Assembly (NCBI RefSeq): GCF_004025965.2
Contig: NZ_SAYU02000007.1
Location: 25,737-89,736 of the forward strand
Origin: Phycicoccus flavus
Lineage (GTDB): Bacteria > Actinomycetota > Actinomycetes > Actinomycetales > Dermatophilaceae
Length of the DNA: 64,000 nt
Direction of reading: 5' to 3'
The first letter of the stretch is position 1. Every line of letters starts with the position of its first letter. Under the pieces are notes generated by a model. That model saw nothing but the letters and a program-made list of their open reading frames with translations, had not been told where the DNA came from and ran no database searches. Below, piece by piece: positions 8,591 through 31,960 of this stretch. A program made the translations under genes and the position numbers.

Positions 8591-10645
8591 TCAGGGCGTC
8601 CCGACGTACAGCGGGACGAAGAACTGGCCGGTGTTGAGGCGGCCCGGCAGGTCCGCCCCGGCCAGTAGCCGCGTCTCGCCGCCGCGGGTCTCCGCGACCG
8701 CGGTCTCGAAGGCGTTGCCGCCCTCGTGGAAGGTGGACAGCGACGCCGACACCGACGACTCGTGGTTGCGGACCACCGGCCGCTCCGGGTCCAGGTCCCA
8801 GGTACCGGTGTAGACGTTGAAGATCGCCCCGAGGATCTCGGTCCGGCCGCCGTCGTCGGTGTCGAAGACCACCCACGGCCCCTCGGCCTTGACGCCGAAC
8901 AGCCACACGTCGCCGCCGTGGTTGACGACGTTCGGCCTGCCGTACGCGGGGTTGATGAAGCGGGCGTAGGCAGTGACGTGGTCGGAGAGGAACGCGACCT
9001 TGCCGACCTCCGGCTTCTTGAACGCCGTGCGGGCCGAGCAGCTGTCGAAGAACACCGTGCCCCCGCGGACCGAGTTGCGGTACATGGGGCCCTGCTGGAT
9101 GTGGATGTCCTGGCAGACGAGCGTCCGGGTCGAGGCGTGGTCGACGAAGTACGCGAGCTTGGTCTCGTTGGTCCAGCCGAAGTGGCGTTCGAGCATGAGC
9201 GGTCCGGAGCCGTGGCCGATGGCGAACATGCCTTGGTCCTCGGCGAGACCGGATCCGGCGCGCACGTGGGTGTACATGAAGTTCACCCGGTGCACCGAGC
9301 CGGGGATGGTCACGGTCCCGTCGAGCTTCCAGACGTGGTTCGGCGGGAACCAGACCACCGGCTTGCCGGAGTCCATGGCCGACTGGATCGCGGCGGTGTC
9401 GTCCGTCGTCCCGTCGCCGACGGCACCGTGGTCGAGGACGCTCTCCCACTGCGACAGGTCCTCCGGCCAGGGCGAGCGGGGGCTGTCCTGGACGGGCAGG
9501 TCGAGCGAGGTCGTCCGCGACTGCTCGAACAGCGTCGCGACCGGTGCGGACACGTACTCCCGCACCTTCGCCGCGCGGACGGCGACCTCTCCCTCCCGTC
9601 GGATCGCGTACGCGTACCCGGGGGTGCGCAGGTCGCGGGCGAACAGCTGGCCGCCCTGGGAGTCGACCGCCGGCACCGAGTCGTCGCGGCCGCGGAGAAA
9701 GGAGTCGACGAGCACGAGGTGGCCGCCGGGTCCGGTGACCCGGGCGACCGGGGCTGCCATGTCGCCGACGACGCGCCGGGCCGACACGCACGAGTCGACG
9801 CACTCGATACCGGAGACACGCTGGCCGGTCATCCGTACCCCGTCCAGGACGACAAGGTACCCGCGCGGCGTCTCGCAGTAGAAGCCGTGGTCGAACCCGA
9901 CGAGGTCGAGGTCCTCGTAGGTGCCCTGGGTGACCCAGATGGGCAGCGAGATCGCCTTGACGCCCTCGCCGTCGGCGGCACGGATCGCCACGTGCCGAAC
10001 GGCGGCGTTGTTGGCGCCGCAGAACAGCAGCCCGGTGGCACCCGGGTTCCCCGAGCCGGTGTCGATCGTGAGGTTCTGCACGTAGTTCGACGCGACCGTG
10101 CCGTTGCGGAAGCCCTTGGCGAGGGACAGCACTGGCTTGTCGGCACCGGGACCGAAGCCGGCCGAGCCGTCCGCGAGCCGGATGGTCACGCCGTCGCGGC
10201 TCTGGCCCTGGAACCGGATCCGGGCGTTGTTCTCGTTGTCGTTGTCCGCCTCGTTCAGCGGCTCGGAGTAGACGACCGTGTCCGAGACGAGGTACTCGCC
10301 ATCTGGCAGATAGATGATGTTCTGGTCCACGAGGGGGCCGTTGCGGTCGGCCGCGAAACGGTCGTGGACGAGGTCGTAGACGGCGACGAGCGCGGCGGTG
10401 TCGTCGGTGACCCCGTCACCCGCGGCGCCGAAGAGGCGCTTGACGTCGATGACGCCGGCGTCGCCGACCGTCTTCGCGAACGCCTCGTCGGGGAAGACGA
10501 CGTTCTCGGACCAGTCGCTGCGGCCGGTGACCCAACGGCCTGGGTCGTGGTGCTCGTCGGCGTGGGCCGGCGAACCCGCGGTGAGCGTGAGGCCGCCGGC
10601 GCCGAGTGCGCCGAGGAGCAGTCGGCGACTGGGGGCGCGGACCAC
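8591..10645 (-). CDS. Tat-exported double beta-helix protein (pectate-lyase-3-like)
   Basis: 684 residues with a twin-arginine signal (SRRLLLGALGAGG, Arg7-Arg8; cleavage near AHA-D at 27-30). Two tandem parallel beta-helix units of the Pectate_lyase_3/GH28-like fold each open with the typical FGAxGDGxTDDTAA turn (about residues 72-86 and 405-420). Such proteins cut or bind polysaccharides outside the cell. It is a clear full-length paralogue of the protein at 12847-14970; they share, for example, NYVQNLTIDTGSGNPGA and RVNFMYTHV. The GTG start at 10645 is the only in-frame start but has no ribosome site, whereas an ATG with GAGG upstream at 10670 is out of frame by one base (see findings). Exact activity unknown. 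Confidence 0.8.
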   Translation of the reverse strand: MVRAPSRRLLLGALGAGGLTLTAGSPAHADEHHDPGRWVTGRSDWSENVVFPDEAFAKTVGDAGVIDVKRLFGAAGDGVTDDTAALVAVYDLVHDRFAADRNGPLVDQNIIYLPDGEYLVSDTVVYSEPLNEADNDNENNARIRFQGQSRDGVTIRLADGSAGFGPGADKPVLSLAKGFRNGTVASNYVQNLTIDTGSGNPGATGLLFCGANNAAVRHVAIRAADGEGVKAISLPIWVTQGTYEDLDLVGFDHGFYCETPRGYLVVLDGVRMTGQRVSGIECVDSCVSARRVVGDMAAPVARVTGPGGHLVLVDSFLRGRDDSVPAVDSQGGQLFARDLRTPGYAYAIRREGEVAVRAAKVREYVSAPVATLFEQSRTTSLDLPVQDSPRSPWPEDLSQWESVLDHGAVGDGTTDDTAAIQSAMDSGKPVVWFPPNHVWKLDGTVTIPGSVHRVNFMYTHVRAGSGLAEDQGMFAIGHGSGPLMLERHFGWTNETKLAYFVDHASTRTLVCQDIHIQQGPMYRNSVRGGTVFFDSCSARTAFKKPEVGKVAFLSDHVTAYARFINPAYGRPNVVNHGGDVWLFGVKAEGPWVVFDTDDGGRTEILGAIFNVYTGTWDLDPERPVVRNHESSVSASLSTFHEGGNAFETAVAETRGGETRLLAGADLPGRLNTGQFFVPLYVGTP

Positions 10646-10784
10646 TCGGGGTGAAGAAGGGGGACGTCATGGGATCGGACCTCTCTGTCCTGGGGGAGGG
10701 TGTCGTCGGGCGTCCGGGTGGAGTGCCCGGCGGCCGTGTGGGGTGGTGGCCTCGGGACGGTTCACCGAGGTCATGACCGGGCGC

Positions 10785-10811
10785 TCGTGGCGGCACCCGT
10801 GCCTGCCACGA
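10785..10811 (-). terminator. Hairpin downstream of the 10824-12653 gene
   Basis: Arms 10785-10796 and 10799-10811 are complementary with a single bulge and lie 13 nt past the stop of the minus-strand gene. The loop is tiny on paper, so the real hairpin would open a few pairs. Plausible terminator or mRNA stabiliser between two co-directional glycan genes. Confidence 0.4.
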
Positions 10812-10823: not shown

Positions 10824-12653
10824 TCACTCGTCGTCGGTGTCACTGCCTGCGGCGGGGCACACGGTGGGTGAGTCGCCGGGGTACAGGCCGCGGGTCGAGT
10901 AGTCGTAGCAGGTGTAGCCGTCGCCGTCGGTCGGGACCCGCAGGACGAGGTTCGCGGGCACACCGAGGGAGTCGGCCTCCGTGCTGCCGGGGGCGGGCCA
11001 GGTCGCGAGGATCCGCCGACGCAGCGTGTCCTTGTACCGCTCCGTCACGTGGTCCGGAGCGGGAGCGACCTCGAGACCGTACTCGACGGCCCAGGTCGAG
11101 ACCCGGTCCAGTGTCTCCTCCGACGCGCCGTAGCCGGCCGGGATTCCCGGGGCGGGGCGGAAGTCTCCGTGCTGCGGGTCGACGAAGACGGAGTCCACGG
11201 CGGTGATGCCCTCGGGGAGGTCGTCACCGGGCACGTCGACGGCGAGGTTGTTGCGGAATCCGATGAAGCGGTCTTGGAAGTCGCGCACCGTCACTGCGCC
11301 GGGGGAGGCGTGGAAGAGGTTGAAGGAGATGGCGTCGGACGCGGACTCCTGAAGGGACAGCTCGCCGTTGCCCGGCACCGCCTGAGCGTTGTGGAAGAAG
11401 CTGTTGTTGCGGATGGTGCTGCCGTCGACGGTGTTGAGTCCGAGGCCGGCCTTGCCGTTGAGGACCGAGACGTTGTCCTCGGCGAGGAACCGGCCGATGA
11501 AGGTCTCGGCGTTGTTCTGCATGTGCAGCCCGTTGCCCTCGTCGATCTCCAGGGTGACGAAACCCTTACGAAAGACGTGCGAGATGTTCGAGGACTGGTT
11601 GCCGAAGACGAAGTTGCCCGTCATCCGGATGCCGAAGGTGTCCGGGTTGTCGTCGGGGTCCGACGCCGGCTTGGAGTTGCTGAACCCGTGGGTGCCCGCA
11701 GTGGAGTACCAGGCGTTGTCGTAGACGAGGTTGTCCTCGCTGCTCACGTAGGCCCCGCCGTTGTTGCTGACGCCGGCGCCCGGGAAGTGGTGGACGACCA
11801 TGTCGCGGATGGTGACCCGGCGCGACCCGTTCATCGCCAGGCCACGCGCGCCGACCGGCGTCGAGAGCGCGTTGTCGTTCCACCATGTCCGGAGGGCCTC
11901 GTCGATGTCGAGGTCGGCCGCGGTGCCTTCGAGCTCGAGGCCCTGGATCGTCCAGTGCTCCGACTGCCGGACGAAGATGCCGTTGACGTCCGACTTCAAG
12001 GTCGCGTACTCGTTGCCCCAGTTGCGCAGGACGAAGGGCTTGGTGAAGGTCCCGTTCTTGCCGTTGATCTTCACGAAGTTGTTGTCGCGCGTCCCGTCGA
12101 AGGGCTGCCCGTACTCGGGGTTGGTGTAGACGCCCCCGCGGACGTAGATCGTGTCGCCGGGCTCGGCCTTGTCGACCGCCTTCTGGAGGTCTCCGAGCGG
12201 CTTGTCGGGGGTGCCCTTGCCGCTGTCCGCGCCTCCGGGGGCGACGTAGATGCCGGCCGGCATCGTGTACGCGCTGGGCCGGACCTTGAGCTTCAGCTCC
12301 TTGGTCTTGCCGGACGGGTAGGTCACCGTCATCGCGTGCGACCCCACCTGGTCCGGCCACGGGGTCCAGTGCAGGTACCCGCTGCGGTCCTGGGCACGCA
12401 GGCCGGCCGGGGCGCCGACGACGCGCCAGGTGCCACCGTCGTCGGCGTAGGCGTCACCCGGTGGGACCAGGACGCAGGCGAACTGGGTCCCGGCCGGGAT
12501 CTCGAGGTTGTTCTCGCAGACGGGCGGCGCGTTGGAGGCTCCGGTGGCAGGCGTCGGAGCGACGACCGCGCCGGCTCCGGCGAGGACCAGGGCGGCGGTC
12601 GTCGCCACGAGGGCGGGGCGCCGGCGGCGCACGGGGGCGGGAGGCATGAACAT
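10824..12653 (-). CDS. Secreted right-handed beta-helix protein, DUF1565/PL9-like
   Basis: 609 residues. A signal peptide (basic start, hydrophobic core ALVLAGAGAVV, cleavage around residues 38-40) is followed by a short beta domain. A parallel beta-helix begins at about residue 135 with GIYVAPGGADSGKGTPDKPL and GDTIYVRGGVY, the phrase typical of DUF1565/PL9-type polysaccharide lyases. Repeated Asn-rich turns (for example IRNNSFFHN) mark the helix rungs. It probably cleaves or binds an acidic glycan outside the cell. The start has GGGAGG 7 nt upstream. It is divergent from the 12847 operon with a 193-nt shared promoter region, and upstream of the paralogous beta-helix gene at 8591-10645. Lyase family and substrate are inferred. 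Confidence 0.75.
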   Translation of the reverse strand: MFMPPAPVRRRRPALVATTAALVLAGAGAVVAPTPATGASNAPPVCENNLEIPAGTQFACVLVPPGDAYADDGGTWRVVGAPAGLRAQDRSGYLHWTPWPDQVGSHAMTVTYPSGKTKELKLKVRPSAYTMPAGIYVAPGGADSGKGTPDKPLGDLQKAVDKAEPGDTIYVRGGVYTNPEYGQPFDGTRDNNFVKINGKNGTFTKPFVLRNWGNEYATLKSDVNGIFVRQSEHWTIQGLELEGTAADLDIDEALRTWWNDNALSTPVGARGLAMNGSRRVTIRDMVVHHFPGAGVSNNGGAYVSSEDNLVYDNAWYSTAGTHGFSNSKPASDPDDNPDTFGIRMTGNFVFGNQSSNISHVFRKGFVTLEIDEGNGLHMQNNAETFIGRFLAEDNVSVLNGKAGLGLNTVDGSTIRNNSFFHNAQAVPGNGELSLQESASDAISFNLFHASPGAVTVRDFQDRFIGFRNNLAVDVPGDDLPEGITAVDSVFVDPQHGDFRPAPGIPAGYGASEETLDRVSTWAVEYGLEVAPAPDHVTERYKDTLRRRILATWPAPGSTEADSLGVPANLVLRVPTDGDGYTCYDYSTRGLYPGDSPTVCPAAGSDTDDE

Positions 12654-12774
12654 CGTCGTCCTCCCACAGATTATTTCGCGTGCGGTAAAAACTAAGCGAC
12701 GGCTGCGACGCCGTCAACCCCACCATCCGGCATCAACCGCACGAGCCCGCGCACGGACGGGCAATATCCCCCTA

Positions 12775-12803
12775 TTGACATGGGTTTACAGACCCTCTAG
12801 GTT
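12775..12803 (+). promoter_or_regulatory. Strong sigma-70-type promoter of the beta-helix/GH3 operon
   Basis: TTGACA (12775-12780), a 17-nt spacer and TAGGTT (12798-12803). The 193-nt divergent region is visibly AT-richer than its surroundings. TTTTCC directly follows the -10, as at the ABC/sulfatase promoter. Confidence 0.75.
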
Positions 12804-12846
12804 TTTTCCTCAAGTTCGCAAACAAACACCGAAGTGAGGTCGTCCC

Positions 12847-14970
12847 GTGTCTGACACCACTCGTTCCGCCCGCTCCGTCGACCGTCGCTCGGTCTTCCGT
12901 GGCCTCGGGGTCGCCGGGGTCCTGGTCGGCTGTTCGGCCGCCGCCCCGACCGCCCATGCCGAGGGCAACCCGCCTCCCGGGATCCCCGACCCGCCTCCGG
13001 GCCAGACGAAGAAGCCGACGTCACCCTTCTTCGAGGAGCACGTCGTCTACCCCGACGACGTGTACGCGGACTCGCTCGACGGCGTCGGGGTCTTCGACGT
13101 CAAGCGACACTTCGGCGCCGTCGGCGACGGCGTCACCGACGACACCGCGGCGTTCATCGCCGCCTCCAGCCACATCGTCGACCGCTACCAGGCGGACCGC
13201 GCGGACGTCGCGCGGGGCAGCCAGAACGTCATCTACGTCCCGGACGGCGAGTACCTCGTCAGCGACACCATCGTCTACGACGCGCCGCTCCTCGAGAACG
13301 GCAACGGGCAGGAGCAGATCGCCCGGATCCGGTTCCAGGGCGAGAGCCGCCACGGCACCGTCATCCGCCTGCGGGACGACGCCCCCGGGTTCGGCCCTGG
13401 AGCGCACAAGCCGGTCCTGAGCCTGGCCAAGGGGTCGCGCAACGGGTCGGTCGCCTCCAACTATGTCCAGAACCTCACGATCGACACCGGCTCGGGAAAC
13501 CCAGGCGCCGTCGGTCTCGTGCACGCCGGGGCGAACAACGGCGGCGTGCGCCAGGTGACGATCCGCTCGGGCGACGGGACCGGCGACACCGGTCTCTCGC
13601 TCGAGATCCTCGTGACCCAGGGCAGCTACCGCAACCTCGTCGTCGAGGGCTTCGACACCGGCATCTTCGCCGGGCCCCCGCGCGGCTTCAGCGTGGCGAT
13701 CGAGCACGTCGCCCTCGCCGGCCAGCGGGTCGCGGGCATCGTCGTCGAGGACGCGGTCGTCTCGGTCCGCGACCTCGACAGCCGCAACAGCGTGCCTGCC
13801 GGCGTCGTCACCGGCGACGACGGCCTGCTCGTCGTCCTCGACTCGCGGCTCGTCGGCGGCGCCACGTCGGCGACCGCGCTCGACTCGCGCTCCGGCGGCC
13901 TCCTCGTCCGCGATGTCGTCGCCGGTGGCTACGGGTCCGCGGTCACCCGCTCCGGCGACGTCGTCGTCCCGACGGGTCGGGTCGCCGAGTACTCCGCCCA
14001 GGGAGTCCAGACCCTCTTCCCAACAGCCGAGCGCACCCTTGGGCTGCCGATCGAGGAGACGCCGCTGCGGGCCTGGCCGCAGGACGTCGACTCCTGGGCC
14101 AACGTCCAGGACTTCGGGGCGGTCGGCGACGGCGCCACCGACGACGCGGCTGCCATCCAGGCCGCGATGGACTCCGGAGCCGCCGTCGTGTACTTCCAGC
14201 CCGGCCATCAGTACGTGCTCGGGGCGACGGTGACGATCCCCTCGTCGGTCGAGCGGGTGAACTTCATGTACACCCACGTCGTGCAGGGCCCGGGGCTCGA
14301 CCTGTTCGAGCTCGCCGAGGGCGAGCCGATGTTCCGGGTCGGCGGGCGCGCCGACGACGTGCCGCTCGTCGTCGAGGACCTCTTCGGCTGGATCCAGGGC
14401 GAGGAGCGCAGCCCGGTGCTCGACCACGCGTCGCGGCGCACGCTCGTCGTCCTCGACTGCCACCACCAGCACGCGCCGATCTACCGCAACTCCGTGAGTG
14501 GCGGGAAGGTCTTCCTCGAGTCGGTCTCCTGCCGCACCGGTCAGCACGAGCCGCACGTCGGCCTCCCGGGCTTCGTCTTCACCGGGCAGCGCGTCTGGGC
14601 CCGCTTCCTCGACCCGGAGTACGGCGACCCCAACATCGTCAACGACGGGTCGGACCTCTGGGTCATGGCCTTCAAGTTGGAAGGTGCGTGGACCGCCTTC
14701 GAGACCCGTGCCGGTGGACGCACCGAGCTGCTCGGAGGGATGAACAACGTCTACACGGGAGGATTCACCATCCCGGACGACCGGCCCATGATCGACACCG
14801 TGGACAGCGACATCTCGGTGACGATGGGCACCTACGGCGGGCAGTACTACGCGACCCAGGCTCGCGAGACCCAGGACGGCGTCACCAGGACCTTGTCCTC
14901 GACCGACCTGCCGCGCCGCTCCGACGACACCCACTCGTTCGTCCCGCTGTACGTCGGCCGCGGCCGCTGA
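12847..14970 (+). CDS. Tat-exported putative lipoprotein, double beta-helix (pectate-lyase-3-like)
   Basis: 707 residues. The N-terminus has a twin-arginine motif (DRRSVFRGLG, Arg13-Arg14) and an apparent lipobox LVGC with Cys29, suggesting a Tat-exported lipoprotein tethered to the membrane. Two Pectate_lyase_3/GH28-like units open at about residues 89-103 and 423-437 with FGAVGDGxTDD. It is paralogous along its whole length to the 8591-10645 protein, which lacks the lipobox. Starts with GTG (GAGG about 7 nt upstream) under a strong promoter at 12775. The GH3 gene follows 26 nt downstream, so the pair forms an operon. Likely acts on an extracellular polysaccharide; catalytic residues were not assigned. 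Confidence 0.8.
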   Translation: MSDTTRSARSVDRRSVFRGLGVAGVLVGCSAAAPTAHAEGNPPPGIPDPPPGQTKKPTSPFFEEHVVYPDDVYADSLDGVGVFDVKRHFGAVGDGVTDDTAAFIAASSHIVDRYQADRADVARGSQNVIYVPDGEYLVSDTIVYDAPLLENGNGQEQIARIRFQGESRHGTVIRLRDDAPGFGPGAHKPVLSLAKGSRNGSVASNYVQNLTIDTGSGNPGAVGLVHAGANNGGVRQVTIRSGDGTGDTGLSLEILVTQGSYRNLVVEGFDTGIFAGPPRGFSVAIEHVALAGQRVAGIVVEDAVVSVRDLDSRNSVPAGVVTGDDGLLVVLDSRLVGGATSATALDSRSGGLLVRDVVAGGYGSAVTRSGDVVVPTGRVAEYSAQGVQTLFPTAERTLGLPIEETPLRAWPQDVDSWANVQDFGAVGDGATDDAAAIQAAMDSGAAVVYFQPGHQYVLGATVTIPSSVERVNFMYTHVVQGPGLDLFELAEGEPMFRVGGRADDVPLVVEDLFGWIQGEERSPVLDHASRRTLVVLDCHHQHAPIYRNSVSGGKVFLESVSCRTGQHEPHVGLPGFVFTGQRVWARFLDPEYGDPNIVNDGSDLWVMAFKLEGAWTAFETRAGGRTELLGGMNNVYTGGFTIPDDRPMIDTVDSDISVTMGTYGGQYYATQARETQDGVTRTLSSTDLPRRSDDTHSFVPLYVGRGR

Positions 14971-14996: not shown

Positions 14997-16856
14997 ATGA
15001 AGCCCATCCTGACCACCGCCGACGACGGCACGCAGTACCGCGACCTCAACGGTAACGGGGTCCTCGACCCCTTCGAGGACCCGCGGCTCACCCCGGAGCA
15101 GCGGACGGCCGACCTCGTCGGCCGGCTCTCGCTCGAGGAGAAGGTCGGGTTGATGTTCCACCCGGTCATCCACGCCGGGCCGGACGGCACGCTCGCCGAG
15201 ACCGTCGTCGGTGGGCGGCCCAAGACGTCCGACACCGTGTCCGGGCGGCTCATCACCCACTACAACGTCCACACCCTCGGCGGGCCGCGGCTCGGCGCGC
15301 GCTGGATGAACGCCCTCCAGTCCCTCGCCGAGCGGACCCCGCACGGGATCCCGGTGACGGTCTCGACCGACCCGCGGCACGCCTTCGTCGAGAACAGCGA
15401 GGTGTCGTTCAAGGCCTCCGGGTTCTCGCAGTGGCCGGAGCCGCTGGGCTTCGCCGCCATCGACGACGTCGACCTCGTCCGCCGCTTCGCCGAGATCGCC
15501 CGCCAGGAGTACCGCGCGGTCGGGATCCGGTCGGCGCTGCACCCGCAGATCGACCTGACGACCGAGCCGCGCTGGGGCCGCCAGGTGCAGTGTTTCGGGC
15601 AGGACGCCGGCCGTGCCTCGGAGTACGTGCGCGCCTACCTCGAGGGCTTCCAGGTGGCGCCGCAGCTCGGGCCGGACAGCGTCTCGTGCATCACGAAGCA
15701 CTTCCCCGGGGCCGGGCCGCAGCTGGACGGCGAGGACGCGCACTTCCCGTACGGCCGCGAGCAGGTCTATCCGGGAGAGATGTTCGAGTACCACCTCGAG
15801 CCGTTCCGGGCGGCGATCGAGGCCGGAACGGCCGGGATGATGCCGTACTACGCGATGCCGCAGGGGCTCGTCCGGAACGGGGAACCGATCGAGGAGGTCG
15901 GCTTCGGCTACAACAAGCAGATCCTCACCGGGCTGCTTCGCGGAGAGCTCGGGTACGACGGCGCGATCGTCTCGGACTGGAAGCTCGTCATGGACCGCGA
16001 CATGGACGGGCGGGTCTTCCCGGCCCGTGCTTGGGGCGCCGAGCACCTGTCGGCGCGCGAGCGGGTCGTGAAGGTTCTCGACGCCGGCGTCGACCAGTTC
16101 GGCGGCGAGGACTTCACCGACCTGCTGCTCACGATGGTCCGCGACGGCGAGGTCACCGAGGCGCGGCTCGACGTCTCGGTCAGCCGGCTGCTGCTCGTGA
16201 AGTTCCGGCTGGGCCTGTTCGACGACCCGTTCGTCGACGAGGACGCCGCCGAGGAGCTGGTCGGCTGCTCGGAGTTCGCGGCCGAGGGCTTTCGCGCCCA
16301 GGCCCGCTCGTTCACCGTGCTCAAGGTCGAGCGCGACGACGAGGACGTGCCGGCGCTCCCGATCCGGTCCGGGCAGCGTCTCTACGTCGAGGGTGTCGAC
16401 CACACCGTCGCCGCGCGGTACGGCACGCTCGTCGAGCACCCCGAGGACGCCGACCTGGCCGTCATCCGGGTCAAGGCGCCCTTCGAGGCCCGCGACGACA
16501 TCCCGATGGAGCGCAAGTTCCACCAGGGGTCGCTGGAGTTCCCGCCCGGCCTGCGCTACCGGCTGCGCCGGATCGCCGACCGGGTGCCGGTCGTGCTCGA
16601 CGTCGAGCTCGAACGGCCCGCGGTCCTCACCCCGCTCGTCGACCTCGCGACGGTTCTCGTCGGCAGCTTCGGCGGCGGGGACGAGGCGTTCTTCGCCGCG
16701 CTCACCGGTGAGGTCCATGCCGACGCCACCCTGCCGATGGAGATCCCGCGCTCGATGGCGGCCGTCCGCGCGTCGCGGTCCGACGTGCCGTCCGACACCG
16801 TCGACCCGGTCTTCCCCGTCCGCTCCGGCGTGCGCCGGCAGGTGCCGACCGCCTGA
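14997..16856 (+). CDS. Glycoside hydrolase family 3 enzyme (beta-glycosidase), cytoplasmic
   Basis: 619 residues. The GH3 N-terminal barrel is clear: LSLEEKVGLM, the KHFPGAGPQ segment, and GYDGAIVSDW with the catalytic nucleophile Asp327. A reduced C-terminal sandwich domain follows (about residues 440-615). No signal peptide, so hydrolysis should be intracellular, on oligosaccharides already imported. The start ATG at 14997 follows the preceding stop by 26 nt; the longer open frame upstream overlaps the beta-helix gene and is not credible. Specific sugar (glucose, xylose, N-acetylhexosamine) cannot be told from sequence alone; context with sulfatases suggests trimming of desulfated oligosaccharides. 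Confidence 0.88.
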   Translation: MKPILTTADDGTQYRDLNGNGVLDPFEDPRLTPEQRTADLVGRLSLEEKVGLMFHPVIHAGPDGTLAETVVGGRPKTSDTVSGRLITHYNVHTLGGPRLGARWMNALQSLAERTPHGIPVTVSTDPRHAFVENSEVSFKASGFSQWPEPLGFAAIDDVDLVRRFAEIARQEYRAVGIRSALHPQIDLTTEPRWGRQVQCFGQDAGRASEYVRAYLEGFQVAPQLGPDSVSCITKHFPGAGPQLDGEDAHFPYGREQVYPGEMFEYHLEPFRAAIEAGTAGMMPYYAMPQGLVRNGEPIEEVGFGYNKQILTGLLRGELGYDGAIVSDWKLVMDRDMDGRVFPARAWGAEHLSARERVVKVLDAGVDQFGGEDFTDLLLTMVRDGEVTEARLDVSVSRLLLVKFRLGLFDDPFVDEDAAEELVGCSEFAAEGFRAQARSFTVLKVERDDEDVPALPIRSGQRLYVEGVDHTVAARYGTLVEHPEDADLAVIRVKAPFEARDDIPMERKFHQGSLEFPPGLRYRLRRIADRVPVVLDVELERPAVLTPLVDLATVLVGSFGGGDEAFFAALTGEVHADATLPMEIPRSMAAVRASRSDVPSDTVDPVFPVRSGVRRQVPTA

Positions 16857-16980: not shown

Positions 16981-17529
16981 GTGAGGTGGTGGGGGGTGCG
17001 ACCGACGATGTTCCTGGTCGTCGGGCTGCCGGGTGCGGGAAAGACGACCGTGGCCCGCCGGCTCGAGACCGAGCGCCGAGCGCTGCGGCTGACCAAGGAC
17101 GAGTGGGTCAAGGCGCTCGCCGGACCGGAGCACCCCGAGGCCGTGTCCGACGTCGTCGAGGGCCGGCTCGTCGACCTCGCTCTGCGCGTGCTCGCCCTCG
17201 GCGTCGACGTCGTCCTGGACTTCGGGCTCTGGAGCCGCGACGAGCGCTCGGCCCTGCGGGACGCCGCTGCCGAGGCGGGTGCCGCCGTGGAGCTGCGCGT
17301 CCTCGACGTGCCGCTGCCCGAGCTGCGCGCCCGGCTGGACCGGCGGCAGGCCCAGACGCCGGAGACCACCTGGCCGGTGTCCGACGCCGACCTCGCCGCC
17401 TGGGCCGCGCGCTACGAGGTCCCGGCGCCCGGCGAGCGCGACGGCACCGAACCCGTCGACGACCCCCCGCCGGCCTTCGAGACCTGGGCGGACTGGCGCC
17501 GCCACCGCTGGCCGCCGGCCCTGCGCTGA
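16981..17529 (+). CDS. P-loop AAA-type kinase-like ATPase
   Basis: 182 residues. Walker A GLPGAGKTT sits at residues 15-23 from the GTG start, or 6-14 if the ATG at 17008 is used; the latter gives the compact MFLVVGLPGAGKT opening usual for this family and may be the true start. A downstream VVLDFGLWSRDER segment resembles the Walker B/substrate loop of chloramphenicol-phosphotransferase and zeta-toxin-like small-molecule kinases. Probably phosphorylates a small metabolite or antibiotic-like compound. It converges on the sulfatase gene at 17552 and follows GH3 by 124 nt, so membership of the glycan locus is uncertain. Confidence 0.75.
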   Translation: MRWWGVRPTMFLVVGLPGAGKTTVARRLETERRALRLTKDEWVKALAGPEHPEAVSDVVEGRLVDLALRVLALGVDVVLDFGLWSRDERSALRDAAAEAGAAVELRVLDVPLPELRARLDRRQAQTPETTWPVSDADLAAWAARYEVPAPGERDGTEPVDDPPPAFETWADWRRHRWPPALR

Positions 17530-22115: not shown

Positions 22116-22278
22116 CCGGTGCCGCCCGTCCCGCCTCTCGACCCGGCGTGCGTCCGCACCGGTTCCCCGTTGTTTCCCCGAGAACACAGGGCGTCGAGCG
22201 TCGAGACGGCGGAGCCGACGATCGGCCTCGATGGTGGTGGGCTCTGTGACGACGCCCGAGATCCTCACGGCTCCGGGG

Positions 22279-22307: not shown

Positions 22308-22371
22308 TCCAACTGGAGTTATCAACCCCCACCCCCCGGGGGTCCTCGTCTCAAGGAAGAGAGCCGATCCG

Positions 22372-23916
22372 ATGCGTGGACACCGCCACCACCCCTTCGC
22401 CCACCGCGTCCTGGTCCCGGGGGTGGCCCTGTGCGCAGCGGGTGCCCTCGCGGCCTGCTCCTCCGCGGTCGACGCCGAGAGCGGCGGCGGCAGCGCGACC
22501 GAGGGCGGCACGGTCACCTTCGCCGTCGCGCTCGACGCCCAGCCGGCGAACATGCTGTCCCACCTCGCGCGCAACGACCCGTGGGTCGGGAGCGTCTTCG
22601 ACTCGCTGATCCGCAAGGACGCCGACGGGCAGCCTCAGCCCGCTCTCGCGACGAAGTGGGAGGTGTCCGAGGACGGCAGGACCGTCACCGTCGACCTGCG
22701 CGACGACGTGACGTTCCAGAACGGCGACCCGTTCACCGCCGAGGACGTCGTCTTCACGATCGACAAGGTCGAGAACCAGACCGAGGGCTCGAACATGAAG
22801 TACCTGGTGCCCAGCAAGGTCGAGAAGGCCAGCGACACCCAGGTCGTCATCACCTTCGACAGCCCTCCCGGCGACGCCCTCTTCGACTGGTTCGAGGTCA
22901 TGCCGATGCAGGACCACAAGACCTTCACCGCCACCGACGACGGCACGACGATCAACGGCACGGGGCCCTTCTCGTTCACCGACTGGAAGCCGGGCGCCGG
23001 CTACACCCTGAAGAAGAACGGCGACTACTGGGGCGGCGACGTCAACCTCGACGAGATCGACTACGTCGTCACCGAGGACGCGACCGCCGAGCTGTCGGCC
23101 CTGCGCAGCGGCCGCGCCCAGATGGCCTGGGGCCTGACCGCCGCCGATGTGAAGTCGATGACCGCCGACCCGCAGTGGACCTCCCTCGAGGCCGGCGGCA
23201 CCGTGTACTCCTTCAACGTGAACATGTCGAAGAAGCCGTTCCAGAACAAGAAGGTGCGCCAGGCGGTCGGCTACGCCATCGACTACGACCGGATCAACGA
23301 CCAGGTCTTCGGCGGCACCGGCACCACGTCCAACGTCTTCTGGGACCCGAAGGCCCCGGGCATGACCGACGACCTCGTGCACCACTACACGTACGACCCC
23401 AAGAAGGCGAAGCAGCTCATGCAGGAGTCCGGCGTCTCCGGCGCCAGCATCCCCGTGGCCTTCGGTGGCAACCCGGCGCTCAAGGCGCAGTTCGAGATCG
23501 TCCAGAACAACCTCGCCGCCATCGGTATCAAGGCCAGCGCCAACCAGCTCGACAACGGCGGGTTCGGTGCCGGACTCGCCAAGGGCGACCTCGGCCCGGC
23601 CTACATGCACCTCAACGGCCAGGTCGGCCTCGCCCCGGTCACCCTCATCGACTCGCTGCCGCAGCTGCGCAAGGGCAACCCCGAGGGCCTGTGGAACGAC
23701 GAGTACGTGGCCAAGCGGGATGCGCTGACGAGCGCCACCGACGACGCGGCCTCCGAGCAGGCGCTCGTCGCGCTGGCCGAGTACCTCCAGCAGGAGGCCG
23801 TGGCCTTCCCCCTCGTACAGGCGCCGATCCAGGTCGTGGCGAAGAAGAACATCAGCGGCGTCACGGCCGAGCGCGGCGGCCCGATGCACTTCGAGAACGC
23901 CGTGATCACGAAGTGA
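22372..23916 (+). CDS. Dipeptide-type ABC substrate-binding lipoprotein
   Basis: 514 residues, family 5 solute-binding protein (DppA/OppA-like). Signal peptide with lipobox LAAC, Cys29, so it is membrane-tethered outside. Typical family segments include ATKWEVSEDGRTVTVDLRDDV and FTAEDVVFTIDKV, and the RQAVGYAIDYDRIND region. First gene of a seven-gene operon (transporter, two sulfatases, FGE) under the 22279 promoter; AAGGAAGAG precedes the ATG. Family members carry peptides, but also oligosaccharides, nickel or opines. Here the company of sulfatases makes a sulfated oligosaccharide the more likely cargo (inference). Confidence 0.9.
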   Translation: MRGHRHHPFAHRVLVPGVALCAAGALAACSSAVDAESGGGSATEGGTVTFAVALDAQPANMLSHLARNDPWVGSVFDSLIRKDADGQPQPALATKWEVSEDGRTVTVDLRDDVTFQNGDPFTAEDVVFTIDKVENQTEGSNMKYLVPSKVEKASDTQVVITFDSPPGDALFDWFEVMPMQDHKTFTATDDGTTINGTGPFSFTDWKPGAGYTLKKNGDYWGGDVNLDEIDYVVTEDATAELSALRSGRAQMAWGLTAADVKSMTADPQWTSLEAGGTVYSFNVNMSKKPFQNKKVRQAVGYAIDYDRINDQVFGGTGTTSNVFWDPKAPGMTDDLVHHYTYDPKKAKQLMQESGVSGASIPVAFGGNPALKAQFEIVQNNLAAIGIKASANQLDNGGFGAGLAKGDLGPAYMHLNGQVGLAPVTLIDSLPQLRKGNPEGLWNDEYVAKRDALTSATDDAASEQALVALAEYLQQEAVAFPLVQAPIQVVAKKNISGVTAERGGPMHFENAVITK

Positions 23917-23923: not shown

Positions 23924-24868
23924 ATGCTGCGCTTCCTGATCCGCAAACTGCCGTCGGTCCTCGGCGTGACCGTCGTCGCCTCGATGATCGCCTTCGCCCT
24001 CCCCCGACTGGCGCCCGGTGACCCCGCCGTGGCGCTGGTCGAGGGGGACGCCTCGCCCGAGACCATCGCCGCCCTGCGGTCCGAGATGGGGCTGGACCTG
24101 CCCCTGTGGCAGCAGTACCTGAAGTGGGTGGGGAGCCTGCTCCACGGTGACCTCGGGACGTCCTACATCCTCAACCGGCCGGTCGGCGACCTCATCCTCG
24201 GCCGGATGGACAGCACCCTCGAGCTCACCATCGCCGCCACCCTGCTCATGGTCGCGGTGGGGATGTTCTTCGGCGTCCTCGGCGGCTCGCGGCTCACCCC
24301 CTGGGCCCGGGCGTTCGTCGACTCGTGGAACACCTTCTTCCTCGCGGTGCCGGCTTACCTCGTCGGGCTGATCCTCATCCTCGTCTTCGGGATCTACACC
24401 CGGGTCCTCCCCGTGAGCGGTGAGATGTCGGTCCTGCAGAACCCGAACTTCGGGCTGCAGTACCTGCTCCTGCCGGCGCTGGCGCTCGCTCTCCCCGGCG
24501 CCGCGGTCGTCGCCCGCCTCGTGCAGACCTCGATGCTCACCAACCGTGGTGAGGACTACGTCGACCTCGCGATCTCCAAGGGTGTCTCCCCGCGACGGAT
24601 CACCGTCCGGCACGTCGCCCGCAACAGCCTCGGCACCGCCGCCGTCGTCATCGGTCTTCGGATCGGCGACCTGCTGGCGGGCGCACTCATCATCGAGCAG
24701 GTCTTCGCGCGCAACGGGCTCGGCTCGCTCGCGGTGAACGCCGTGCAGAGCCGCGACTACCTCCTCCTCCAGGTCCTCATCCTCCTCGCGGTCGTCATCG
24801 CGATCCTCGCGCAGCTCGCGTCCGAGATCGCCCTGGCCGCCCTCGACCCCCGCATCCGATTGGGCTGA
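23924..24868 (+). CDS. ABC transporter permease, DppB-like
   Basis: 314-residue inner-membrane permease with six predicted transmembrane segments. N-terminal signature LRFLIRKLPSVLGVTVVASMIAFALPRLAPGDPA is typical of DppB/OppB. The EAA-type loop is near RITVRHVARNSLGTA. It starts 7 nt after the binding-protein stop and is followed after 5 nt by the second permease. Forms the import channel together with the DppC-like partner and the fused ATPase. Confidence 0.92.
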   Translation: MLRFLIRKLPSVLGVTVVASMIAFALPRLAPGDPAVALVEGDASPETIAALRSEMGLDLPLWQQYLKWVGSLLHGDLGTSYILNRPVGDLILGRMDSTLELTIAATLLMVAVGMFFGVLGGSRLTPWARAFVDSWNTFFLAVPAYLVGLILILVFGIYTRVLPVSGEMSVLQNPNFGLQYLLLPALALALPGAAVVARLVQTSMLTNRGEDYVDLAISKGVSPRRITVRHVARNSLGTAAVVIGLRIGDLLAGALIIEQVFARNGLGSLAVNAVQSRDYLLLQVLILLAVVIAILAQLASEIALAALDPRIRLG

Positions 24869-24873
24869 TCCAC

Positions 24874-25751
24874 ATGTCCACCTCCGACATCGACGCCGCT
24901 GTCGCCGCACCCGCCCGCCGGCGGTTCGCCGTGCCGGCCTCCCTGGCCCGCTACGGTGCGGCCTTCCGCACCCCGCGGGGCATGGTGGCCACCGCCGTCC
25001 TTCTCGTCCTCGTCGCGCTCGCCCTGCTGGCCCCGGTGATCTTCGCCGGCGGGTACGACGTGCAGAGCAGCGACTCCTTCGCCGGTCCCTCCGGAGCGCA
25101 CCTCTTCGGCACCGACGAGCTCGGTCGCGACCTCCTCGTCCGCAGCGTGTACGGGCTACGCACCGACCTGCTCCTCGTGCTCCTGGCGGTGCCGGTCTCC
25201 GGGATCATCGGCAGCCTGCTTGGGCTGTCCGGCGCCGTCTGGCCGCGGTTCGGGACGCTCATGCAGCGCTTCTTCGACATCATCATCGGCTTCCCCAGCT
25301 TCATCCTCGCGCTCTGCGTCGTCGTCGTCCTCGGGGCGAACTTCACCTCGACCGTCGTCGCGATCACCATCCTCGGTCTTCCCGGATTCGGCCGTCTGGC
25401 CCGGTCCGGGGCGCTGGAGCAGCAGGGTCGTGAGTACGTCATCGCGGCCCGTACCCTCGGGGTCAGCCGCCGGCGGATCCTCACCCGGCACATCGTCCCG
25501 AACACCGCGGACCCGCTCATCGTCCACGCGGCGATCTTCGCCGTGAACGCCGTCTTCATCGAGTCCGGCCTGGGGCTGCTCGGGCTCGGCGTGCAGCCGC
25601 CCCAGCCCTCGCTCGGCTCGCTGCTCAACAACGGCATGCGGCACGTCCGCGAGATGGGCTTCTACCCGATCGGCCCGATGCTCGTCCTCCTGCTGCTCGC
25701 GCTCTCGCTGAGCATGCTGTCCGACTCCCTGAACGAGAGGGTGAACCGGCG

Positions 25752-25755
<4 letters not shown>
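24874..25755 (+). CDS. ABC transporter permease, DppC-like
   Basis: 293-residue permease, second half of the channel. A cytosolic N-terminus and the first membrane helix are followed by the family phrase HLFGTDELGRDLLVRSVYGLR and the EAA loop around SRRRILTRHIVPNTADPLIVH. Its stop overlaps the start of the fused ATPase gene by 4 nt (ATGA), indicating translational coupling. Confidence 0.92.
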
Positions 25756-27862
<2,107 letters not shown>

Positions 27863-27866
<4 letters not shown>

Positions 27867-29446
27867 GCACCCGCCCCAACGTCGTCGTCGTCCTGGCCGA
27901 CGACCTCGGCTACTCCGACCTCGGCTGCTACGGCGGTGAGATCGAGACCCCGAACCTGGACCGGCTCGGGCGCGCCGGCGTCCGGCTCGGCTCCTTCTAC
28001 AACACGGCCCGCTGCAGCCCGTCCCGGGCCAGCCTCCTCACCGGTCGCGACCCGCACGAGACCGGCATCGGTATCCTCACCGAGAACGACGCCCCGACCG
28101 GCTACCCGGGGACGATGAGCCGCGACTTCGCCACGATGGCCGAGCACTTCAAGGCGGCGGGCTACTCGACCTGCCTGTCCGGGAAGTGGCACCTGGCCAA
28201 CGACATCTCGAGCCCGAACGACGCCTGGCCGACCCGTCGCGGGTTCGACGAGTTCTACGGCATCCTCATGGGCGCCGACCACTACTTCCACCCCCTCGAC
28301 CTGCGTCGGGGCGAGGAGAAGCTGGAGTCGCCGACCGACGGCTACTACTTCACCGACGCGGTCAGCGAGCACGCGAGCGACTGGGTCGCCGGGCGCGGGG
28401 AGGACGACCCGTTCTTCCTCTACCTCGCGTTCACCGCCCCGCACTGGCCGCTGCACGCCCACCCCGAGGACATGGAGCGGTACGCCGGCGTCTACGAGCG
28501 GGGCTGGGACCGGCTGCGGGCCGAGCGGCTCGAGCGCCTGCAGGCCGAGGGCCTGGTTGGCGACGAGGCCCGGCTCTCCGAGCGCGACCCGAGCCAGCCG
28601 GCCTGGGACGAGGTCGAGGAGACCACGTGGGAGGCCAGCCGGATGGCGGCCTACGCCGCGATGGTCACCGCGATGGACCGCGGCATCGGCCGGGTCCTGG
28701 ACACGATCGAGGCCCGCGGCGAGCTCGACGACACGATCGTCGTCTTCCTCGCCGACAACGGCGGATGCGCCGAGACCCCCGGCGAGGCCGCGAAGTTCCG
28801 CTTCCGCAACCGGACCGAGCTCCCCGACGGGCGCTCGATCCGGATCGGCAACACCCACGACATCCCTCCGGGCGGGCCCGACACCTGGACCGCGTACGGC
28901 CCGGCCTGGGCCAACCTGTCCAACAGCCCGTTCCGCCTCTACAAGCGCTGGACCCACGAGGGCGGCATCGCCTCCCCGTTCGTCGTCCACTGGCCCGCTG
29001 GCGGCCTGGCCGACGGCTCGGTCGTCCACCGGCCCTTCCAGCTGACCGACGTGCTCCCGACCCTCCTCGAGGCGGGCGGGCTGCCGAGCGCCGGGGGCCG
29101 GGGCGTGAGCATGCTCGACACCCTCCGGGGCGGCACGGCCGGGGCCGACCACACCCTGTTCTGGGAGCACATCGGCAACTGCGCCGTGCGCGAGGGTGAC
29201 TGGAAGCTCGTCCGCGAGGCCGAGCAGCCCTGGGAGCTGTACGACCTCGCCACCGACCGGTCCGAGCTCGACGACCTGGCCGCCGAACACCCCGAGCGGG
29301 TCGAGGCCCTCGCCGCCGCGTGGCAGGAGTGGGCCGACGGCGCGGGCGTCCTGCCGTGGCCGGTCCACCAGTCCCCGTGGGACCCCGAGACCGACCTGCA
29401 CCGACACCGACCGACCGTTCGCGAGCACGAGGAAGCGACCCGATGA
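27863..29446 (+). CDS. Type-I sulfatase, arylsulfatase-like, cytoplasmic
   Basis: 527 residues. Complete sulfatase signature CSPSRASLLTG with formylglycine site Cys51 (motif 51-55), metal strand VVLADDLGYSDLGCYGG, GKWHLAND, and IVVFLADNGG. A DUF4976-like C-terminal region (WELYDLATDRSELDDLA) closes the fold. No signal peptide. AAGGAG lies 7 nt before the ATG, and the gene overlaps the ATPase stop by 4 nt. Co-translation with the importer points to desulfation of incoming substrate. Substrate class not resolved; the style matches the large arylsulfatase-A-like group acting on carbohydrate sulfates. Confidence 0.93.
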
Positions 29447-30915
29447 GCACCCAGCCCGAGACCCCCACCCGCCGGCCGAACATGGTCTTCCTCCTCACCG
29501 ACGACCACGCGGCACACGCCATCGGCGCCTACGGCTCGGTCGTCAACACGACCCCCCGCATCGACGAGATCGCCGAGTCAGGGGCGCGGCTCGAGCACTG
29601 CTACGCGACGAACTCGCTGTGCACCCCGAGCCGGGCGAGCATCCTCACCGGCACCTACAGCCACGTCAACGGCGTGTACGGGCTCAAGACGCACATCGAC
29701 GCCAGCCAGCCGACGTTCATCAGCCGGCTGCGCGAGGAGGGCTACCGCACTGCCATCGTCGGCAAGTGGCACATGGGCGACGGCGAGACAGACGGCGTCT
29801 CGCACGACCCGCAGGACTTCGACTACTGGGACGTCGTCCTCGGCCAGGGCGAGTACCACGACCCGCGGTTCCGCTCCGCCGACGGCGAGCGGACGGAGGA
29901 GGGCTACGCGACGAACGTCATCACCGACCTGTCGCTGCAGTGGATGGACGCGCAGGTCGCCGACGACGAGGACCGGCCGTGGGCCATCCTCATCTGGCAC
30001 AAGGCGCCGCACCGCCCCTGGCAGCCCGATCCGGCGCACCTGGACCTGTACACCGACCCCATCGCTGTGCCGCGCACCTTCTTCGACGACTACTCGACGC
30101 GCACCGCGTCGGCCCGTCGGGCGGCCATGCGGCTGGCCGAGGGCATGCACCTGCGCGACCTCAAGACGCTGCCGCCCGAGGGCCTCACCTACGAGGAGCT
30201 CTCGCTCTGGAAGTACCAGCGGTACATGGAGGACTACCTGCGCTGCGTGCACTCGGTCGACGTGAACGTCGGCCGCGTCCTGGACTGGCTGAAGGAGCGG
30301 GACCTGTTCGATGACACCCTCGTCGCCTACAGCTCGGACCAGGGGTTCTTCCTCGGCGACCACGGCTGGTACGACAAACGCTTCATGTACGAGGAGTCGC
30401 TGAAGATGCCGTTCGTCGTCTCCTACCCGCGCCGGATCCCGGCCGGGACGGTCTACGAGGGCACGGCGAGCAACGTCGACATGGCCCAGACCTTCCTGGA
30501 CGCCGCCGGCGTCGCGCACCACCCGCGGATGCAGGGGCGCAGTTTCTTCGGCGACCTCGTGGGCGAGCCGACGGCGCCGCAGGCGGACGGGCTGTACTAC
30601 CGCTACTGGGAGAACGACGACTACGACCACCATGCGCCCGCGCACTACGGTTGGCGCACCGAGCGGTACAAGCTCATCTACTTCTACAACGACGGTCTCG
30701 GCCTGCCGGGCACGACGAACCGGCAGTATCCGCCGGAGTGGGAGCTGTACGACATGGAGCAGGATCCGGACGAGGTGAACAACGTCTACGACGACCCCGC
30801 GTACCGCGAGGTCCGGGAGGAGCTGAAGGTCGCGATGTGGAAGGCGCAGGAGTCCTTCGGCGACGCGCCGCACCCGAGCCAACCGGTGCCGACCGGGCTC
30901 ACGGTCGACGCGTGA
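29443..30915 (+). CDS. Type-I sulfatase, carbohydrate (GlcNAc-6-sulfatase/iduronate-sulfatase-like), cytoplasmic
   Basis: 490 residues. Formylglycine site Cys60 in CTPSRASILTG (motif 60-64), metal strand FLLTDDHAAHAIGAYGS, GKWHMGD, and VAYSSDQGFFLGDHGWYDK with the conserved DQG/DHG metal and sulfate ligands. Ends with a DUF4976-like domain (WELYDMEQDPDEVNNVY). The overall pattern resembles bacterial N-acetylglucosamine-6- and iduronate-2-sulfatases of glycosaminoglycan and mucin degraders. No signal peptide. Overlaps the preceding sulfatase by 4 nt. Substrate is inferred, not shown. Confidence 0.93.
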   Translation: MSTQPETPTRRPNMVFLLTDDHAAHAIGAYGSVVNTTPRIDEIAESGARLEHCYATNSLCTPSRASILTGTYSHVNGVYGLKTHIDASQPTFISRLREEGYRTAIVGKWHMGDGETDGVSHDPQDFDYWDVVLGQGEYHDPRFRSADGERTEEGYATNVITDLSLQWMDAQVADDEDRPWAILIWHKAPHRPWQPDPAHLDLYTDPIAVPRTFFDDYSTRTASARRAAMRLAEGMHLRDLKTLPPEGLTYEELSLWKYQRYMEDYLRCVHSVDVNVGRVLDWLKERDLFDDTLVAYSSDQGFFLGDHGWYDKRFMYEESLKMPFVVSYPRRIPAGTVYEGTASNVDMAQTFLDAAGVAHHPRMQGRSFFGDLVGEPTAPQADGLYYRYWENDDYDHHAPAHYGWRTERYKLIYFYNDGLGLPGTTNRQYPPEWELYDMEQDPDEVNNVYDDPAYREVREELKVAMWKAQESFGDAPHPSQPVPTGLTVDA

Positions 30916-30937
30916 CCGGGCACGCCCTGGAGGACTG

Positions 30938-31960
30938 GTGACCGGCCCGGAGGCTCGCGGTGGCCTCACCGGGCTGGTCGACGTGCCCGCCGGGTCCTTC
31001 CGCATGGGCTCGACGGACTTCTATCCCGAGGAGGGGCCGGTCCGGGAGGTCCGGGTGGACGCGTTCGCCGTCGAGCGGCACCCGGTGACCAACGCCCAGT
31101 TCGCGGCCTTCGTCGCCGACACCGGCCACGTCACGGTGGCCGAGCAGGCGCCGGACCCGGCCGACTTCCCCGGTGCCGACCCGGCCCTGCTCGTCCCGGG
31201 CGGTCTCGTCTTCACCCCGACCCCGGGCCCGGTGCCGCTGGACCGCTGGGACCTGTGGTGGCGGTGGCAGCCGGGCGCCTGCTGGCGCACCCCGCAGGGG
31301 CCGGGGTCGAGCACCGACGGCATCGAGGAGCACCCGGTCGTCCTCGTCGCCTACGACGACGCCCTCGCCTACGCGCGCTGGGCCGGGCGGGACCTGCCCA
31401 CCGAGGCCGAGCACGAGTACGCCGCCCGCGGCGGCGGGGGGACGAGCACGTACGCGTGGGGTGAGGAGCGGACGCCGGGCGGCCGGCTCATGGCCAACAC
31501 CTGGCAGGGCCGCTTCCCCTACCGCAACGACGGCGCCGACGGCTGGCGCGGGACGTCGCCGGTCGGGGCGTTCCCCGCGAACGGCTACGGCCTGCACGAC
31601 CTGGTCGGGAACGTCTGGGAGTGGACCCGGACCCTCTTCCTCACCGGGGCCGACCGCGACGCCGCGGACGAGCTGGCCCGCGGCGACGGTGGCGGGCCCG
31701 CGCCCGTGGCGGAGGCCGCCGCGGTGTCGTCGTGCTGCGCGCCGGACCGCTCGACGATGGTCGCGGCGCCCGACCTCCAGGCGCTGACCGAGCGGTCGGT
31801 CGCGCCGGGGGAGCGGCACCCGCGACGGGTGCTCAAGGGCGGCTCCCACCTCTGCGCCCCGGAGTACTGCCTGCGCTACCGGCCCCCGGCGCGCTCGCCG
31901 CAGTCCGAGGACAGCGCGACGACGCACCTCGGCTTCCGCTGCGTGCTCCGCGCCGCCTGA
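30938..31960 (+). CDS. Formylglycine-generating enzyme (sulfatase-maturating)
   Basis: 340 residues, FGE-sulfatase (SUMF1-like) fold. It oxidises the Cys of CxPxR in sulfatases to formylglycine using oxygen, in the cytosol. Catalytic cysteine pair C306 and C311 is present in GGSHLCAPEYCLRYRP, with the spacing of characterised copper-dependent FGEs. N-terminal VPAGSFRMGS and LVGNVWEWT are family hallmarks. GTG start with GGAGG 5 nt upstream. Last gene of the transporter/sulfatase operon, 22 nt after the second sulfatase, so enzyme and clients are made together. The pair distinguishes a true FGE from catalytically inactive relatives. Confidence 0.92.
   Translation: MTGPEARGGLTGLVDVPAGSFRMGSTDFYPEEGPVREVRVDAFAVERHPVTNAQFAAFVADTGHVTVAEQAPDPADFPGADPALLVPGGLVFTPTPGPVPLDRWDLWWRWQPGACWRTPQGPGSSTDGIEEHPVVLVAYDDALAYARWAGRDLPTEAEHEYAARGGGGTSTYAWGEERTPGGRLMANTWQGRFPYRNDGADGWRGTSPVGAFPANGYGLHDLVGNVWEWTRTLFLTGADRDAADELARGDGGGPAPVAEAAAVSSCCAPDRSTMVAAPDLQALTERSVAPGERHPRRVLKGGSHLCAPEYCLRYRPPARSPQSEDSATTHLGFRCVLRAA

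Follow-up and report, generated by a model that had tools for sequence, protein, structure and literature searches.

Much carbon is stored in the sulfated polysaccharides of algae and animals, which are degraded slowly, and this process has been studied best in Bacteroidetes and other Gram-negative bacteria. The ats clusters of Bifidobacterium breve carry a ROK-type regulator, a transporter, a sulfatase and a maturation enzyme for imported GlcNAc-6-sulfate, which gives a precedent for desulfation after import; they are not known to include secreted depolymerases and use an anaerobic maturase rather than the formylglycine-generating enzyme (FGE). A literature search aimed at these clusters found no paper on them. 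The present analysis concerns a block of genes (bases 8591–31960) in a 64,000-base stretch of the Phycicoccus flavus genome (4.26 Mb), hereafter the window, which covers bases 25737–89736 of contig NZ_SAYU02000007.1. Judged from its sequence, the block is quite probably an inserted, likely ROK-regulated locus for living on sulfated polysaccharide, with cutting predicted outside the cell and desulfation predicted in the cytosol.

The chondroitin lyase cluster of the marine Arthrobacter sp. MAT3885 (SulA1/SulA2/ChoA1; PMC10972148) likewise places sulfatases beside a polysaccharide lyase gene in an actinobacterium. SulA1, which lacks a signal peptide, was taken as intracellular (PMC10972148); intracellular sulfatases of actinobacteria had thereby been reported before. 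The Arthrobacter lyase belongs to PL8, whereas the Phycicoccus block encodes GH55-fold and PL9/BT_1002-fold proteins, and the available part of that source names no importer or FGE gene. In the lambda-carrageenan locus of the marine Pseudoalteromonas distincta (PMC12549532), the S1_8C sulfatase of which is the closest solved relative of the Phycicoccus sulfatase S2, desulfation precedes exo-glycosidase cleavage; that locus uses GH150, GH110 and GH2, whereas Pfam found no GH110 or GH2 in the Phycicoccus block. The polysaccharide utilisation loci (PULs) of Bacteroides and Pedobacter likewise cluster a regulator, a transporter, carbohydrate-active enzymes (CAZymes) and S1_4, S1_8 and S1_11 sulfatases (PMC10154612, PMC9067506). 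They employ SusC/SusD and surface or periplasmic sulfatases, whereas the Phycicoccus block encodes an ABC importer, and its sulfatases are predicted to be cytosolic; no Bacteroidetes-type SusC/SusD pair was matched by Pfam among the 15 block proteins. The components by which a PUL is recognised, namely a regulator, a transporter and a CAZyme (PMC9067506), were all found, as the ROK protein, the SBP-OppBC-OppDF importer and the GH3 glycosidase. The earlier note had presented the layout of importer plus cytosolic sulfatases as one that it did not recognise; as a claim of novelty this does not hold in that form, in view of the Arthrobacter precedent and of comparable clusters in other families of the order. 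What looks new here is the combination of GH55-fold and PL9/BT_1002-fold proteins with S1_8-, S1_4- and S1_11-like sulfatases and an Opp-type importer; a literature search, with most subscription papers outside its coverage, found no description of this enzyme set.

Genes were called from open reading frames and codon-position GC, followed by Pfam searches with cut-offs, which gave 15 block proteins (Table 1). The block genes followed the coding-type third-position GC pattern, their products exceeded the Pfam cut-offs, and the start sites of ROK, the substrate-binding protein (SBP), GH3, S3 and S4 were corrected from reading frames and relatives. Pfam, hydropathy and motifs bore out the inventory of the earlier note: three beta-helix proteins with export signals, a GH3 glycosidase, four CxPxR sulfatases, ROK, an importer and FGE. 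All four sulfatases exceeded the PF00884 cut-off (123.6–195.2 bits) and carried the intact CxPxR motif of type-I (formylglycine) sulfatases. The FGE combined PF03781 with a cysteine pair near the C-terminus (CAPEYC, residues 306–311), which we take to be catalytic, and the GH3 protein carried PF00933. Four of the six sulfatases of the host genome (seven matches, one protein being split in two) were packed within 13.4 kb, while 7 of 12 Phycicoccus genomes had none above the cut-off, which argues that the clustering is not due to chance.

Export was predicted using simple hydropathy and by-eye reading of N-termini, with no signal-peptide program. N-terminal hydrophobic segments could be observed in bh1, bh2, bh3, the SBP and both permeases, but in none of the four sulfatases and neither in GH3 nor in FGE (hydropathy maximum 0.38–0.91 in the first windows). 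We take the motifs of bh1 and bh3 to be twin-arginine-like and that of the SBP to be lipobox-like. Based on the gene map, bh2-bh1 and ROK-S2-S1 form leftward transcription units, and bh3-GH3 and SBP-OppB-OppC-OppDF-S3-S4-FGE form rightward ones. The four-base ATGA overlaps at the OppC/OppDF, OppDF/S3 and S3/S4 joints argue for the importer and sulfatases being on one message.

The simplest reading of these data is a sulfated-glycan utilisation locus of a Gram-positive bacterium; its steps, from depolymerisation to derepression, we infer from family membership and location. The bh1 and bh3 proteins (GH55 fold) and bh2 (PL9/BT_1002-like fold) would cut the chain outside the cell, and the SBP, the OppB and OppC permeases and the fused OppDF ATPase would import sulfated oligosaccharide. 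In the cytosol, FGE would turn the CxPxR cysteine of S1–S4 into formylglycine, each of the four sulfatases would remove sulfate from one sugar position, and GH3 would trim the desulfated chain. The freed sugar may then release the ROK repressor from dyads of both divergent promoters. The outline proposed in the earlier note, namely cutting outside, import, and desulfation and trimming inside, is supported as a prediction by the predicted locations, the ATGA overlaps, a second-species block, candidate operators and a cluster in Ruania; with the novelty claim set aside as described above, the note's interpretation is supported in part.

Sulfatase subfamilies were judged from the nearest solved relatives rather than from SulfAtlas models, and for S2, S3 and S4 these relatives included carbohydrate sulfatases. 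The best match of S3 was 7ALL (360.6 bits), followed at 290 bits by the arylsulfatase 4cxk/1hdh, of which 1hdh is presumably the P. aeruginosa enzyme. S2 matched 9BBA, an S1_8C enzyme, best (238.6 bits), with five S1_8 rows before a drop to 77.5 bits, and S4 matched 5G2V (363.8 bits) and 7P24 (359.1 bits), with eight rows to 283 bits before a drop to 133.7 bits. The score gap was wide for S2 and S4 and smaller for S3. S1_8C has been assigned the role of an exo-sulfatase for galactose-2-sulfate; xylose-2-sulfate or N-sulfoglucosamine is the substrate of other S1_8 members (PMC12549532). 7ALL is BT4683, an S1_4 enzyme acting on 3-O-sulfogalactose, and 7P24 is BT3177 of S1_11 (PMC10154620), members of which act on GlcNAc-6-sulfate or L-galactose-6-sulfate (PMC10154612). 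The S1_8, S1_4 and S1_11 relatives would point to 2-O- or N-sulfate, 3-O- or 6-O-sulfate and 6-O-sulfate, respectively, on galactose-/hexosamine-type sugars.

The GH3 protein had a full-length match to 9UL7, named only 'beta-glucosidase' (827 bits), followed by SN243 (242 bits), which we take to be a GH3 beta-glucuronidase. Literature searches on SN243, 9UL7 and Phycicoccus avicenniae found no papers. A second GH3 copy of the same family occurs in the host (G000:C113:7339-9144) with 59% identity to that of the locus, and no sulfatase or FGE match was seen in the 18.5 kb around it.

A sulfated galactan-like algal or cyanobacterial polymer is the leading guess for the substrate, with low confidence. 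Reading the substrate from the closest structures was not decisive: the sulfatases lead to galactose-/glucosamine-type sulfates, GH3 to glucosides or, through SN243, presumably to glucuronides, and the GH55 fold to beta-1,3-linkages. A glycosaminoglycan (GAG) locus degrading heparan or chondroitin sulfate would agree with the name of 5G2V, N-acetylglucosamine-6-sulfatase, and with the distant relation of GH3 to the beta-glucuronidase SN243. Pedobacter heparinus also uses S1_8 and S1_11, together with S1_9, on heparin (PMC10154612). However, none of the 15 proteins matched a known GAG-lyase domain or GH88 in Pfam, and the solved 2-O-GAG sulfatase 5G2T was not the top match of any of the four sulfatases. 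Moreover, the available part of PMC10154612 names S1_4 for mucin rather than heparin, and the region that recognises the N-acetyl group is missing from about half of S1_11 (PMC10154612). Such a locus is considered unlikely, and a GAG-only reading was set aside as no GAG-lyase domain was seen.

Returning to the utilisation of a sulfated polysaccharide in general, the beta-helix proteins are its predicted extracellular part. The bh1 and bh3 proteins are paralogues with 51% identity. The structural model of bh3 predicted tandem right-handed beta-helices over the whole chain, as GH55 requires, and bh1 probably shares this GH55-like double beta-helix because of its identity to bh3. The sequence match of bh3 to the GH55 structure 5m5z was 50 bits, with a best stretch of about 100 residues. 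Residue E627 of bh3, a candidate equivalent of the GH55 catalytic glutamate, was invariant in 11 sequences. The bh2 protein matched Beta_helix with 29.8 bits, little above the cut-off of 25.9, and was modelled as a right-handed beta-helix with a PL9/BT_1002-like fold. Relatives of bh3 were found in Planctomycetota, Verrucomicrobiota and Kiritimatiellales, and those of bh2 in cyanobacteria. Proteins of the bh3 type are rare in the samples searched: among 58 relatives they occurred only in the host and P. avicenniae (a weak match of 46 residues in G055 was not counted), and in the class they occurred in 1 of 394 genomes, the host itself. A plasmid search gave one 29% match to bh3 and eight records with weak bh2 matches, and a DNA search with the SBP gene matched only short stretches of it. 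Homologues of bh2, bh3 and GH3 were recorded in Streptosporangium canum, all three records giving a 157,422-base contig; this locus was not found in a contig scan, which gave only P. avicenniae, nor in a guessed family of S. canum, its identity unverified (0 of 250 and 0 of 341 genomes, overlapping samples). Two families of beta-helix proteins thus stand out in the locus as candidate new enzymes and, if the proposed function is true, the bh2 and bh3 families would be new enzyme families for sulfated polysaccharides.

The insertion was examined in a sample of 12 Phycicoccus genomes, in which the host is G000 and P. avicenniae BSK3Z-2 is G001. LigD was present in 12 of 12. LigD neighbourhoods were compared in the ten genomes other than these two, and LysS was reached in nine, the contig of G004 ending too early. 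No block gene lay between LigD and LysS in eight of the nine. The ninth, G008, had only relatives of S4 (72%) and FGE (75%) at LigD-LysS, in the same orientation (L056, 12793-15294), with the native intergenic segment on the side of S4-FGE opposite to that in the window; this arrangement is possibly a second insertion or a rearrangement. Sequence common to the block-less relatives continued up to about 8500 on the left and resumed by about 32160 on the right, so the inserted DNA amounts to about 23.6 kb. From these comparisons the block is read as having been inserted between LigD and LysS, a site whose differences among genomes may stem from independent insertion or from deletion. FGE (E 1e-20 or better) and sulfatases above the Pfam cut-off were found in the same 5 of 12 genomes, and a sixth, G002, had a sulfatase match below the cut-off.

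P. avicenniae shows the same gene order for bh1-bh3, GH3, S2, ROK, SBP, permeases, ATPase, S3 and S4, with 75–92% identity (bh1 84%, ROK 77%), and has a second ROK gene (48%) between GH3 and S2. Elsewhere in that genome (L059, G001 C5, 9413-11886), a divergent FGE (40%) lies beside an S4 paralogue (52%), and it may serve the sulfatases of the P. avicenniae block, which has no FGE.

An AT-rich dyad was present in both divergent promoters in both species. A dyad matrix trained solely on the ROK/SBP-gap half-sites of both species was used to scan the whole window (64 kb) and a 50-kb stretch of G001. In each scan the best two non-training dyads lay in the bh2/bh3 gap (19.4–20.3 bits), and scores elsewhere were at most 14.5 bits in the window and 14.8 bits in G001. 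Of 1000 shuffles of the bh2/bh3 gap, none reached the second-best score in either species, and 14 and 17 reached the best score. An ungapped 16-base comparison gave no strong word that the ROK/SBP and bh2/bh3 gaps of the window have in common. The pattern TTGACR-N17..22-TTTNCC, which was written after inspecting these promoters, had three matches in the whole host genome, two of them in the locus (bh2 and SBP promoters) and the third at a place conserved in G001; the bh3 promoter misses it by one base of spacing, and the reversed control pattern had no match in either genome. These candidate operators give moderate support to both divergent promoters belonging to one regulon.

Related clusters outside the genus were approached through GH3, using the S. 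canum copy as the query (E 1e-100), which revealed GH3 in 29 of 394 class genomes; neighbourhoods were read at 20 of the 34 places other than the locus. One of these (L076, G191) contained SBP-OppBCDF with relatives of S2 (39%) and S4 (53%) and an adjoining GH2, and another (L084) contained FGE and a sulfatase. The G191 locus gave no bh match. A two-cupin protein encoded there (L076, 6667-7752), with GH3 on one side and an MFS_2 transporter on the other, reads as gentisate-dioxygenase-like and hints at aromatic glycoside or sulfate substrates for that locus. S2 relatives were found in 12 of 396 order genomes, 10 of them outside the host/P. avicenniae pair. In G783 (L103, 4681-13300), an MFS sugar porter accompanied relatives of FGE (39%), ROK (44%), S4 (66%) and S3 (61%); no closer sulfatase pair was seen outside Phycicoccus. 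Relatives of FGE, S4 and S2 occurred in G912 and G1058, an Opp importer adjoining S2 in G191 and G957, and ROK (30%) with a weak sulfatase match in G893; no other gene of the set was found near the S2 relative in G958, G808 and G1015, except for ABC ATPase matches in G958.

The independent cluster of Ruania alkalisoli (G820, L095/L096, about 13.7–29.5 kb of the joined stretch) resembled that of Phycicoccus in having two bh3-family proteins, three sulfatases (S1_8-like, S3-like and one further), ROK and an ABC sugar importer; a lysS gene lies about 10 kb away. It differs in having SBP_bac_1 instead of SBP_bac_5, and no GH3 or FGE match was seen in the 40 kb read. This cluster bears on the idea that the importer, sulfatases and GH3 process small sulfated glycosides or aromatic sulfate esters as food, the beta-helix proteins serving something else. 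The gene content of the G191 locus, the pairing of S3, S4 and FGE relatives with an MFS sugar porter in G783 and the nearness of S3 to arylsulfatase 1hdh are in line with that idea. It is nevertheless judged improbable, as the candidate operators and the conservation of the block extend to both the beta-helix/GH3 half and the importer/sulfatase half, and as two bh3-family proteins of Ruania are clustered with sulfatases and a sugar importer. As a tentative generalisation with somewhat less than an even chance, the Phycicoccus block would be one example of a scattered actinobacterial class in which secreted beta-helix enzymes of unnamed families cut still-sulfated polysaccharide, an exchangeable ABC importer takes up the products and FGE-matured exo-sulfatases act in the cytosol, the opposite of Bacteroidetes.

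Several observations weigh against the sulfated-polysaccharide reading of the locus. Sulfatase S1, the small kinase and FGE had no counterpart in the P. avicenniae block, and the PDB match list of S1 was flat (best 109 bits), with no clear subfamily. By the names of matched proteins, SBP_bac_5 importers are mostly known for peptides or nickel; the SBP matched 10 NCBIfam models, every one below cut-off. Beta-helix folds include epimerases and phage tailspikes besides lyases and hydrolases. Even with permuted matrix columns, 232 of 300 trials placed the bh2/bh3 gap at the top of the 19 gaps; part of the dyad signal is thus due to AT-richness, and in G001 the TTGACR pattern occurred twice (SBP promoter and the conserved place) and not in the bh2/bh3 gap. 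Finally, the GH3 belongs to a family that is common without sulfatases: in 18 of the 20 GH3 neighbourhoods neither the locus sulfatases nor FGE had a match. Together with S4 and FGE standing alone in G008, this would suit a glycan locus of beta-helix and GH3 genes that adjoins an unrelated locus of importer and sulfatase genes. Such an arrangement is very unlikely in view of the same gene order in P. avicenniae, the same absence in eight of nine genus mates, the dyads in both promoters and, in Ruania, the S1_8-like sulfatase that accompanies bh3-family proteins. For the proposed polysaccharide locus, the compact 15-gene set, which has counterparts in the named strains P. avicenniae BSK3Z-2 and Ruania alkalisoli, makes import before desulfation directly testable.

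Table 1. Features of the Phycicoccus flavus block, with positions in the window
Feature	Position	Strand	Evidence and predicted properties
bh1	8591..10645	-	PF12708, 85.9 bits; Tat-like start RRLLLGALG; predicted exported
bh2	10824..12653	-	Sec-like N-terminus, predicted exported; modelled single beta-helix, PL9/BT_1002-like fold
bh2/bh3 divergent promoter region	12654..12846		two candidate operator dyads, 12669-12692 and 12801-12826
bh3	12847..14970	+	Tat-like, predicted exported; PF12708; modelled double beta-helix, GH55 fold
GH3 glycosidase	14997..16856	+	PF00933, 121 bits; no export signal
Small accessory AAA_33 P-loop protein	16981..17529	+	PF13671, 101.6 bits
Sulfatase S1 (type I)	17552..19009	-	PF00884, 140.5 bits; CTPSR; no export signal
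Sulfatase S2, S1_8-like	19037..20818	-	CAPAR; C-terminal HEAT repeats (PF13646); no export signal
ROK-family transcriptional regulator	20875..22047	-	PF00480, 150 bits; weak winged-helix matches
ROK/SBP divergent promoter region	22048..22371		candidate operator dyads 22089-22113 and 22301-22323 (matrix training sites)
SBP (SBP_bac_5), lipoprotein-like	22372..23916	+	PF00496, 269 bits; lipobox-like GALAAC at N-terminus
ABC permease, OppB type	23924..24868	+	PF00528 (BPD_transp_1)
ABC permease, OppC type	24874..25755	+	PF00528 (BPD_transp_1)
Fused OppD-OppF ATPase	25752..27866	+	PF00005 x2, PF08352 x2
Sulfatase S3, S1_4-like	27863..29446	+	CSPSR; no export signal
Sulfatase S4, S1_11-like	29443..30915	+	CTPSR; no export signal
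FGE	30938..31960	+	PF03781, 258 bits; no export signal

The AAA_33 kinase-like gene (16981-17529), which is not in the P. avicenniae block, had a secondary Pfam match to Zeta_toxin. The insertion site is bordered by Ku and ATP-dependent DNA ligase genes (4433-7241), a non-homologous end joining pair. Downstream of the block (37150-53568), two GFO/IDH/MocA oxidoreductases, LacI, a P450-reductase-type fusion, a PfkB kinase, a TPP enzyme, an ABC transporter and an aldehyde dehydrogenase were found, and the whole set resembles inositol catabolism.

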